From contig JAOUOR010000002.1 in the NCBI GenBank assembly GCA_029880245.1, positions 1-64,000 on the forward strand: a DNA stretch of 64,000 bases, in the 5' to 3' direction. The translations under genes were made by a program, and so were the position numbers. Shown piece after piece: positions 6,409 to 63,966 of the stretch. This DNA comes from Alphaproteobacteria bacterium (GTDB taxonomy: Bacteria; Pseudomonadota; Alphaproteobacteria; Micavibrionales; Micavibrionaceae). The notes under the pieces were generated by a model, which was not told the DNA's origin, ran no database searches, and was given only the letters and a program-made list of their open reading frames with translations. Every line of letters starts with the position of its first letter. Position 1 is the first letter of the stretch.

Positions 6409-6770
6409 TTCCAGTCTCCGGGCCTGTATTTATATTGTAGGGCAATGACATAGGACTTCAGGGGTTTAAGCAGAACCAGCGTAATGACAAGTGCGCAGAC
6501 ACTCCAGATTACAACATGGACCCATAGCGGCGGAGCAAAGGCAACTTCGAAGATCAATGCCAAGGGCACAAGCAAAAATCCGAGCAGAAAAATCAGGAAT
6601 ACAGCAGGACCATCGGCGCTATCGTTTTTGCTGAAATTTAAACCGCACCCCTCGCATTTCTCACAAAGATCAAGGCTCAGACCACCTTTATAGAGGCTGC
6701 CCATGCCGCATTTCGGACATTTACAGGACAAAGCTGATTTAAGTGGAGAAAGGCCTTCGGGAGTATCCAA
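6405..6770 (-). CDS. DUF983 family protein
   Basis: CxxC..CxxC zinc-ribbon-like N-terminus plus 2 TM; located between surf1 and ctaE as usual in alphaproteobacteria. Confidence 0.85.
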   Translation of the reverse strand: MDTPEGLSPLKSALSCKCPKCGMGSLYKGGLSLDLCEKCEGCGLNFSKNDSADGPAVFLIFLLGFLLVPLALIFEVAFAPPLWVHVVIWSVCALVITLVLLKPLKSYVIALQYKYRPGDWK

Positions 6771-60796: not shown

Positions 60797-60873
60797 GGGC
60801 CTGTAGCTCAGCTGGTTAGAGCAGTCCGCTCATAACGGATTGGTCGGGGGTTCAAGTCCCTCCGGGCCCACCA
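60797..60873 (+). tRNA. tRNA with CAT anticodon, probably tRNA-Ile2 (lysidine-modified), alternatively Met
   Basis: GGGCCTGTAGCTCAGCTGGTTAGAGCAGTCCGCTCATAACGGATTGGTCGGGGGTTCAAGTCCCTCCGGGCCCACCA; anticodon loop CTCATAA; GGGCCTG acceptor resembles alphaproteobacterial Ile2. Confidence 0.9.
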
Positions 60874-61143: not shown

Positions 61144-61219
61144 GTCCCGTTCGTCTAGAGGCCTAGGACACCGCCCTTTCACGGCGGCAACACGGGTTCG
61201 AATCCCGTACGGGATGCCA
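61144..61219 (+). tRNA. tRNA-Glu (anticodon TTC)
   Basis: GTCCCGTTCGTCTAGAGGCCTAGGACACCGCCCTTTCACGGCGGCAACACGGGTTCGAATCCCGTACGGGATGCCA; full cloverleaf. Confidence 0.96.
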
Positions 61220-61363
61220 ATTATTTCAATAACTTAGATGATTTTCAAAAACTCCGTACGTAACTTATACGTAATATACGGGTTCATTTTTCATGGGATT
61301 TTGCTGTACTAAATAGGACAAGTAATAGTTGGAAAATTATGTCAGAGTTTGTAAATTCGTTTA

Positions 61364-62140
61364 ATGTTCGATTACGATGACATTGAAAACTTTCATATTC
61401 CAGACTTCAAGCTTTTTCACCTAAGCTTATATGAAGCAGCGAGATTTGCGGCAAAAATTAGATTGCTCGAAGGCTATCTTGATATAGATCATCCTGACGA
61501 GCCTGAGTTTTACGATTTAAACAATCCAGTTTTGGACAAGTTGCTAAAAGAACAATATGAGATTTTTGAAAATGCACTGCTTAAGGCTGCTCAGAACGGA
61601 AGCTTGAAAGTCGCTCATTTAGAAAGAGATATACATGACGAAATAGATATTGCTCACACCTATATTGATATTCACGATCTAGCGGATTGGCTAGATAAAA
61701 GAGGAACATCAATTTACGGTGATTTCTTTGCTGGCTATCAAGATAAGCAATTTGATTTATACTGGATTGCAGAACGTGCTGTTAAAGCTGAGTTAGTTCG
61801 TAGGGAAAATCAGGCTAAGAGAAACATTTTTTCAGATCAGGACTTAATAGTTCACCTGCAAGAGCAAAATGAATCTTTAAAAAAGGCTTATGAAACAAAC
61901 AATCAAAATAAACCAAAACCATTACATACAAAAGAAAGAGAAACTCTTTTAAAGATTATAGCAGGCATGGCAACAGACGCGTATGGCTACGATCCAAATG
62001 CTGCCCGCTCACCCATCCCCAGAGAGATAGCTGATATACTCGCCGAAAAAGAAATACCCCTTGATCCCGACACTGTTCGTAAATGGCTAAAAGAAGCTGC
62101 CGAAATTCTGCCTCAAAGCCCTGAAAACCCTGACGACTAA
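61364..62140 (+). CDS. island-associated hypothetical protein with HTH-like C-terminus
   Basis: C-terminal KERETLLKIIAGMATDAYGYDPNAARSPIPREIADILAEKEIPLDPDTVRKWLKEAAEILP, a region type seen in proteobacterial islands. Confidence 0.75.
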   Translation: MFDYDDIENFHIPDFKLFHLSLYEAARFAAKIRLLEGYLDIDHPDEPEFYDLNNPVLDKLLKEQYEIFENALLKAAQNGSLKVAHLERDIHDEIDIAHTYIDIHDLADWLDKRGTSIYGDFFAGYQDKQFDLYWIAERAVKAELVRRENQAKRNIFSDQDLIVHLQEQNESLKKAYETNNQNKPKPLHTKERETLLKIIAGMATDAYGYDPNAARSPIPREIADILAEKEIPLDPDTVRKWLKEAAEILPQSPENPDD

Positions 62141-62170
62141 ACCGAATACGGTTTTGGTTTAACCGAATAC
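62140..62170. promoter_or_regulatory. direct repeat AACCGAATAC x2, 21 bp apart, upstream of the alpA-like gene
   Basis: AACCGAATAC at 62140-62149 and 62161-62170. Confidence 0.55.
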
Positions 62171-62233
62171 CACCACAAATATTTTAGCTTGTATAGATTT
62201 GCCTTGGTTGCAATTAAACTAAGGAGAATCTTA

Positions 62234-62425
62234 ATGCACAACTACACTCTTCCTGACACTGGATTTGTAAGACTTCCAGAAGTTTTAAAAGTCTTTCCTG
62301 TGAGTAAATCAACATGGTGGGCAGGCATTAAAGACGGACGTTTTCCCAAAGGCGTGAAATTAAGTGAAAAAATCACAGCGTGGCGCGTTGAAGACATTCG
62401 GGCGTTGATTGAATCATACAAGTAA
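62234..62425 (+). CDS. AlpA-like prophage/island transcriptional regulator (excisionase-like HTH)
   Basis: FVRLPEVLKVFPVSKSTWWAGIKDGRFPKGVKLSEKITAWRVEDIRALIES; RBS aaggaga upstream. Confidence 0.88.
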   Translation: MHNYTLPDTGFVRLPEVLKVFPVSKSTWWAGIKDGRFPKGVKLSEKITAWRVEDIRALIESYK

Positions 62426-62431
62426 AAGCCT

Positions 62432-62953
62432 ATGTCAAAGCGTTTATACCCTCATAACCGCGTGCGCTATTGGTCTGCGTATGATCTGGATGAAATATGC
62501 GCTCTGTTCTCAGATACAGGGCTGCATATTCAAACGGTGCGAAGATGGATAAATAAGGGTGGTTTGCAAACTATAGACCGGAACAAGCCCACCTTGATTT
62601 ACGGGCAAAACCTTATTGATTTTCTAAAGCGCCAGAACAGTAAAGGAAAGTGCAAAACAGCCTTTGACCAGATTTATTGCATGAAATGCAAAGACGGGCG
62701 GCCTGTTTATCAGAAAAAGATTGTAATTGAACAGCATAAAGGAGGGTTTTTAAAAGCATCCGGCCTTTGCCGTGAATGCAAAAATCGTATGTTCAAAAGC
62801 TACAAAATGGAAGATTACGGCGCGTTAAAGCGTACCTTTCATGTGGTTGATGTTTTGGAATTATACGATTGTGTAACCCCCACCGATAAGACTCACATTT
62901 CTGCACAAGAGCAAAAGCGCGCAAGTGAGTCTGGGCAAATGGAGCTTTTTTAA
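62432..62953 (+). CDS. HTH + zinc-ribbon-like protein with C-terminal QMELF
   Basis: N-terminal HTH-like IQTVRRWINKGGLQTID, CMKC...CREC pair, C-terminus GQMELF; stop overlaps int start (TAATG). Confidence 0.75.
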   Translation: MSKRLYPHNRVRYWSAYDLDEICALFSDTGLHIQTVRRWINKGGLQTIDRNKPTLIYGQNLIDFLKRQNSKGKCKTAFDQIYCMKCKDGRPVYQKKIVIEQHKGGFLKASGLCRECKNRMFKSYKMEDYGALKRTFHVVDVLELYDCVTPTDKTHISAQEQKRASESGQMELF

Positions 62954-63966
62954 TGAGCAAAGCTAATTACAAAGACAGATTCAACCCCATAAATGAGCGC
63001 ATGAAATATAAATACCGTATTTACATGCGATGCGTGCGGCAAAGAGATGAAAAAACCATTTTGGCTGCCTTAAAACATATTCGAGAATTTGAGATTTTTT
63101 GTGGTTTTGCGGGGTTTGAAAAATACGATGATGCTATAGCGGATAAATATATCCGAGCCATGTTTTCGCAAAAACTTTCTCTTAATCACATCACAGGCAA
63201 TTTGCGTGCTGTTAAAGATTTTTTGAACTGGCTTGAGCGGCAAAGAGGTTACAGGAGCAAAATCAATTTTAACCATATTGAATATTTAAACATTTCTACA
63301 AACCAAAAGAAGGAGGCGAAAGCCATGAACTACCAAAAAGCCTATAAATACGATCAAATTATTGATGTAATTCGTGCCATGCCGGATAAAACAGAAAAGG
63401 AAAAACGTGATAAAGCCATGATTTCCTTGCAAGCACTTTGTACTTTGCGCATTTCAGAATTGCGCACTGTTAAAATAAGGAGTTTGATTGAGGAAGACGG
63501 CATATTCTTTGTATATGTATGCCCCAAAAACATGAAAACAAAATTTGCAAAAACACGATATTCGGTTTTTGTGCCTTTGCCGGATGACATTAAAGGGAAT
63601 ATATTAAGCTGGCGTGATTATCTTGTGTCACTGGGTTTTAAAGACAATGATCCGCTTTTCCCTAAAATAGACAATAGCTTTAATGCTCAAAACCTTCTTG
63701 AACAAGGCATAAAGAAGATTGAAATAAAATCCGATACGACAATTCGGGATGTTTTCCGGCGGGCTTTTGAAAACGCAGGGCTGCCCTATATCAATCCGCA
63801 TTCTTTTAGAAAAACGCTTGCACGATATGCCCAGACCCAAACCCCAGAGTTTTTGAACGCTGTGAGGCAAAACTTAGGGCATAGCTCCATAGATACAACG
63901 CTTAATAGTTATGGACAATTATCCGTGGCAGATCAGAGGAGAATAATAAATCAAGTGAGTTTTTAA
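62953..63966 (+). CDS. tyrosine recombinase / site-specific integrase
   Basis: LCTLRISELRTV (Arg I), HSFRKTLARYA (HxxR), LGHSSIDTTLNSYG (H..Y). Confidence 0.93.
   Translation: MSKANYKDRFNPINERMKYKYRIYMRCVRQRDEKTILAALKHIREFEIFCGFAGFEKYDDAIADKYIRAMFSQKLSLNHITGNLRAVKDFLNWLERQRGYRSKINFNHIEYLNISTNQKKEAKAMNYQKAYKYDQIIDVIRAMPDKTEKEKRDKAMISLQALCTLRISELRTVKIRSLIEEDGIFFVYVCPKNMKTKFAKTRYSVFVPLPDDIKGNILSWRDYLVSLGFKDNDPLFPKIDNSFNAQNLLEQGIKKIEIKSDTTIRDVFRRAFENAGLPYINPHSFRKTLARYAQTQTPEFLNAVRQNLGHSSIDTTLNSYGQLSVADQRRIINQVSF

Follow-up and report, generated by a model that had tools for sequence, protein, structure and literature searches.

What does a small protein do when its gene is packed between those of an AlpA-like regulator and a tyrosine recombinase? 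The question is raised by a locus in the window, the 64,000-nucleotide stretch of alphaproteobacterial DNA analysed here. The first-pass annotation named three open reading frames at this locus and took the middle one to encode a dedicated partner of the recombinase. All three exist: the AlpA-like protein passes its Pfam cutoff, the middle gene encodes a helix-turn-helix (HTH) and zinc-ribbon protein, called MID below, and the third gene encodes a clear tyrosine recombinase, INT2.

A tight operon and its middle protein

The three genes form a tight operon.

62234-62425, + strand: alpA, a 63-aa AlpA-family regulator/excisionase (PF05930, 36.1 bits against a cutoff of 21)
62432-62953, + strand: MID, 173 aa from ATG to TAA, with a winged HTH, a zinc ribbon and a disordered tail
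62953-63966, + strand: INT2, 337 aa with an ATG start, an XerC-like tyrosine recombinase (PF00589, 56 bits)

The TAATG overlap between MID and INT2 was described correctly, while the gap between alpA and MID measures 6 bp instead of the 7 given before. The module was also said to start at 62140, a position that belongs to the stop codon of ORF258 and an operator-like repeat; the best start for alpA is the ATG at 62234, from which Phage_AlpA scores above the Pfam curated cutoff. A longer form from the TTG at 62189 is unlikely, since AlpA homologues are 58-65 aa long in most loci.

MID consists of a winged HTH (residues 16-70), a zinc ribbon (C83, C86, C113, C116) and a tail ending in GQMELF. 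Its AlphaFold model (mean pLDDT 88.5) shows the winged HTH, a beta-rich zinc-ribbon domain and a disordered tail with pLDDT below 60, and the four cysteines are near-invariant across MID alignments. The N-terminal fold resembles excisionase-like HTH proteins in a viral library, where the HTH alone matched. The HTH match to PF12728 is below cutoff, the HTH_17/excisionase family scoring 18.4 bits against a Pfam cutoff of 27. Pfam returned nothing above cutoff, PHROGs and NCBIfam nothing significant, and searches for solved-structure or fold relatives of the whole protein found none. The earlier impression that MID falls in no characterised family is thus upheld by sequence and structure searches alike.

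MID and INT2 travel together

The tight packing had been read as non-random, and counting how often MID lies directly before a tyrosine recombinase bears this out: INT2 is directly downstream in 44 of 45 MID loci, far above chance, and the one exception (L036) stops at a contig end. A further partial MID without INT2 (L059) falls outside these 45 loci. Five weak matches (L060-L062, L066, L118) were left out of the MID counts; they might have made MID an orphan HTH protein elsewhere, a notion rejected on finding that they match the HTH only and have no zinc ribbon. Viewed from the recombinase, the INT2 subfamily (E < 1e-40) occurs in 23 of 367 genomes of the class, with MID upstream in nearly all. 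The INT2 relatives without MID include a locus that runs into a contig end, a truncated one, a broken gene and one preceded by a different small HTH protein.

The two proteins also diverge together. Their distance matrices correlate with r = 0.90 (n = 43), and the remaining pairings among AlpA, MID, INT2 and INT1, the integrase found at the tRNA end of most related elements, give r = 0.15-0.32. Finally, the two genes are fused in two lineages, G665 and Ruegeria sp. TM1040.

L127:10421-12043, - strand: MID::INT2 fusion of G665, 540 aa
L128:6212-7834, + strand: MID::INT2 fusion at the second G665 locus, 540 aa
L158:6509-8116, + strand: MID::INT2 fusion of Ruegeria sp. TM1040 (TM1040_RS03150), 535 aa

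Near-obligate adjacency in both directions, correlated divergence and fusion in two lineages bear out the proposed partnership, and MID is very probably the dedicated partner of INT2. It most likely stands to INT2 as an accessory or directionality factor stands to its integrase.

INT2 itself has the full R-K-H-R-H-Y set of a catalytic tyrosine recombinase (PF00589). Residues R166, K197, H283, R286, H310 and Y320 are the same in all 32 aligned homologues, which argues for selection to keep INT2 functional as a recombinase; the second G665 copy appears decayed around these residues. These observations bear on another reading, in which MID does no more than regulate transcription or set the directionality of INT1, and INT2 is carried along passively. 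The excisionase/MerR-like HTH of MID would suit such a role. MID tracks INT2 and not INT1, however (r = 0.31 for the latter), the two proteins are found fused, the active site of INT2 is invariant, and in Legionella the pair lies beside a serine recombinase, all of which makes this reading highly unlikely.

The integrative element at tRNA-Glu

By the features listed here, the operon sits in an integrative element inserted at tRNA-Glu, whose right end lies on C34, a second contig of the same genome (G000).

61144-61219, + strand: tRNA-Glu (TTC), the integration target (ARAGORN)
61174-61212: attL core, the 3' part of tRNA-Glu, with an identical 39-bp copy elsewhere in the genome
61250-61282, + strand: arm-type repeat inside the left end, with a 93.9% copy at the right end
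61364-62140, + strand: ORF258 (C3), a variable regulator whose C-terminal ~60 aa are common to equivalent genes elsewhere
G000:C34:3519-4796: 425-aa tyrosine integrase adjoining attR
G000:C34:4801-4833: arm-type repeat inside the right end, the 93.9% copy of 61250-61282
G000:C34:4935-4973: attR, the identical 39 bp

Identical 39-bp end repeats, an integrase adjacent to one end and an empty site mark a tRNA-targeted integrative element. The empty site is found in a genome of the same genus (G070:C103), where tRNA-Glu immediately adjoins the sequence found beyond attR in G000, with 97.2% identity over 178 bp; a scaffold gap interrupts the tRNA-Glu of this site. An apparent intron in the same tRNA gene proved to be a run of N.

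Past the window the element encodes hsdM and hsdS, and C34 encodes the end of an Abi gene and hsdR ahead of the 425-aa integrase that adjoins the right end, so that the cargo consists of type I restriction-modification (RM) and Abi genes. Contigs C24 and C34 are presumed to join, since the related element L021 has the same order hsdM-hsdS-abi-hsdR-integrase, and with this join the element is ~11 kb long. A search of the window's own genome for a P4-type INT1 found none. A 36-bp copy of the 3' end of tRNA-Met (window 60797-60873) lies at L099:5183-5218, 210 bp past the right end, a hint that the neighbouring tRNA-Met was the target of nested or earlier insertions.

A family of small mobile elements

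With its control and recombination genes, the operon appears to form the core of a family of small mobile elements, hitherto unnamed and mainly alphaproteobacterial. MID was detected in 14 of 104 genomes of the same bacterial family (one a weak fragment), in 23 of 385 genomes from 22 genera of a class-wide sample (a few HTH-only), and in one genome outside the class in a phylum-wide sample. A search of phages and viral contigs found none, and no replication or packaging-interference genes of the kind carried by phage satellites and PICIs were recognised among the scanned cargo proteins.

The usual layout runs from the tRNA through INT1 (an Arm-DNA-bind_3 integrase), the variable C3, AlpA, MID and INT2 to the cargo. 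The att repeats, 12-20 bp or longer in the other elements, give a size of roughly 6-14 kb. In L020 a second INT1 fragment lies directly behind attR (oriented 6432-6635), a tandem arrangement of elements at one tRNA-Thr. The INT1 slot is filled by a P4-type integrase in most elements, by another tyrosine type in the window and by a serine recombinase in Legionella: on a Legionella adelaidensis plasmid (L123, 8582-12141), MID-INT2 lies beside a large serine recombinase and a SpoVG-family gene replaces AlpA. In most elements, then, a different, exchangeable integrase occupies the tRNA end, and INT2 is a second recombinase rather than the tRNA integrase.

A contrary reading makes MID-INT2 an integrase and accessory factor acting at the tRNA, and the tRNA-side integrase a later or parallel addition. 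It draws on L083, L127 and L128, where INT1 is missing within reach, and on the fused elements, where the module directly follows tRNA-Ser. No att repeats were found for the fused elements or L083, however, and arm-like repeats behind tRNA-Ser in L127 and L128 suggest a lost INT1. It is INT1-type integrases that have att and arm sites beside them, and the integrase type varies while MID-INT2 stays constant. An INT2 acting at the tRNA is decidedly improbable.

What else might a second recombinase do? INT2 is nearest to XerC, XerD and XerA, and Pfam finds no arm-binding domain in it, traits that would fit an Xer-like system for resolving or maintaining element dimers or tandem copies, as would the second element remnant behind attR in L020. 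It is not the cell-division recombinase itself, scoring 58 bits with the NCBIfam XerC model against an equivalog cutoff of 335. No replication gene was recognised in the elements, so multimers should be rare, no res- or dif-like site was found near the operon, and co-transcription with AlpA suggests a role in mobilisation. Resolution is improbable as the main function. The search for a DNA site of either INT2 or MID identified none.

Regulator C3 and candidate operators

Two operator-like sequences precede alpA in the window.

62139-62154: operator-like palindrome AAACCGAATACGGTTT, upstream of alpA
62161-62170: second copy of AACCGAATAC, 21 bp from the first

Across the elements, palindromes are located 60-150 bp upstream of alpA, and their types track the type of the C3 C-terminus. 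CCGAATnCGG-type sites occur at the equivalent position in L021, L024, L073 and L085; they are doubled, 21 bp apart, in L024, L073, L085 and L015 (where the second is imperfect), and L021 has one perfect copy. Other operator types are ACCGCAAnTGCGGT in L018 and L023, GGGTGTCACCC in L016 and L017, and AATAACTAGTTATT in L022, with a partial copy in L020.

Typing the regulators against the operators by regular expression gave p = 0.12, with several loci misclassified by the expression. Typed by eye from C-terminal sequences after the sites were known, and with the p value computed by hand, the CCGAATnCGG-type site occurs in 5 of 9 loci with a GMA..GY.Y-type C3 domain and in none of the 29 that lack this domain (hypergeometric p ~2.5e-4). 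This match covers few element types and is a lead, as the reclassification followed sight of the sites. It suggests that C3 is a repressor of the operon, swapped together with its operator, a prediction that stands on the operator-type match, as Pfam gives no indication of a repressor in ORF258/C3.

Cargo behind INT2

Cargo begins directly behind the INT2 stop codon. Of 28 elements examined, 24 have defence genes behind INT2 (the match in L080 is weak), and these comprise type I, II, IIG and III RM, DRT9 with an exonuclease, Abi genes and Hma. The exceptions are a polysaccharide gene (L030), a chemotaxis/histidine kinase cargo (L034), a Cas4-like nuclease domain alone (L077) and a cargo without assignment (L128). 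In L019:11654-14645 (- strand) the cargo pairs a DRT9 reverse transcriptase and an SbcB-like exonuclease. L128:8030-14317 holds two large genes (1226 and 865 aa) that drew no match in PADLOC and no significant one in Pfam; lying in the usual defence position, this pair is a candidate for an unknown defence system.

The boundary between core and cargo is sharp. The two G665 elements share 92.6% identity over the stretch that starts at tRNA-Ser and ends 7 bp past the int2 stop codon, and beyond it their cargo is wholly unrelated. In L020/L022, L018/L030 and L015/L016, pairs that differ in cargo, similarity ends 14-47 bp before the INT2 stop, and similar type III RM cargo lies behind the divergent backbones of L018, L023 and L067. 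This pattern would be expected of a cargo-exchange machine in which INT2 recombines at a site that coincides with its own stop codon or lies just past it, swapping defence modules in the manner of an integron platform. Selection on coding genes alone would also put breakpoints at gene ends, however. Repeats that the INT2 end has in common with the cargo end do not rise above shuffled controls, by which an integron-like cassette platform was rejected, and no sequence is conserved behind INT2 across elements. We consider cargo exchange unlikely as the main function of INT2.

The clamp-like tail and a model of the operon

Another possible role is suggested by the MID tail. QLxLF-type C-terminal beta-clamp motifs are known from transposases such as those of IS1634 (PMC4549789), and the MID tail motif fits the transposase consensus. 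The clamp-like tail noted at first sight is a recurrent C-terminal feature: a QxxLF or QLxLxL-like peptide occurs in the last 16 residues of 18 of 43 MID homologues, against a shuffled expectation of 0.17 on average and 3 at most (5000 shuffles), for a pattern picked after viewing the tails, among relatives that are not independent; in its favour, the tail around the peptide is variable. The same motif type appears in 4 of 445 internal windows. With QMELF in its flexible tail, MID is a putative beta-clamp-binding protein. Clamp docking cannot be essential everywhere, as the motif is absent in 25 of 43 MID proteins. Upstream of the fused genes, the AlpA-like protein has the sequence TPDLFE close to the N-terminus, which may be a clamp-type motif that has moved.

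These elements suggest a model, which we hold to be rather probable, where alpA-MID-INT2 is a conserved, regulated recombination operon of tRNA-inserting, defence-carrying elements and MID loads INT2, with a link to replication in one branch. ORF258/C3 would repress the operon through the palindromes upstream of alpA, and once repression is lifted AlpA would promote excision by the tRNA integrase. MID, binding DNA through its winged helix and zinc ribbon, would load the active recombinase INT2 onto the DNA of the element itself. For one branch the model has the MID tail dock on the sliding clamp of DNA polymerase, and the second recombination step would then act on element DNA that is being replicated or has just been copied. 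The replication-linked role taken by itself is tentative, and cargo exchange and resolution are its main rivals. Against the model as a whole, the tRNA integrase present in most elements leaves the need for a second recombinase unexplained. A combined version, in which MID-INT2 is a clamp-guided module that exchanges defence cargo behind int2 during replication, independently of the tRNA integrase, is distinctly unlikely; if true, it would be a dedicated engine reshuffling bacterial immunity.

Relation to known systems

A comparison with known elements shows shared parts in different arrangements. In the passages that describe them (PMC12595487), the IntY/AlpA islands I23, I44 and I55 likewise occupy a tmRNA or tRNA 3' end, with direct repeats and a tyrosine integrase there, and carry AlpA and anti-phage cargo without transfer genes. 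These passages mention no MID or second tyrosine recombinase, and they place AlpA at the far end, whereas here an alpA-MID-INT2 operon precedes the cargo. P4/CP4-57-type islands share an INT1 with Arm-DNA-bind_3, a tRNA target and AlpA; the present elements add a MID-INT2 pair, and their INT1 slot accepts unrelated integrases.

GInts (ginABCD; PMC5385486) resemble the present family in an operon of several recombination genes, a small accessory protein and cargo that begins at the last stop codon. They have three consecutive tyrosine recombinases and GinD, in contrast to the two different recombinases found here, usually separated, with AlpA and a zinc-ribbon HTH protein. The strand-biased circularizing integrative elements (SE; intA-tfp-intB-srap; PMC10214605) also combine two tyrosine recombinases with accessory proteins. 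Theirs is an adjacent core operon of Gammaproteobacteria, and gene order, accessory proteins (SE proteins compared by description only) and host range differ here. IS1634 transposases (PMC4549789) are likewise mobile-element proteins with a QLxLF-type peptide at the C-terminus, but here the putative clamp peptide is on an accessory protein instead of the recombinase and in part of the family. A literature search, incomplete in coverage and so no proof of novelty, returned no description of this architecture.

Defence genes travel on small islands. How such islands exchange their cargo and are controlled is poorly understood. The operon points to a widespread family with a fixed recombination core, in which the integrase, the defence cargo and apparently the repressor and operator are swappable. 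It also offers material for testing whether recombination, replication and defence turnover are linked, in the form of a module of two proteins or, in Ruegeria sp. TM1040, whose genome is complete, of a single fused protein.
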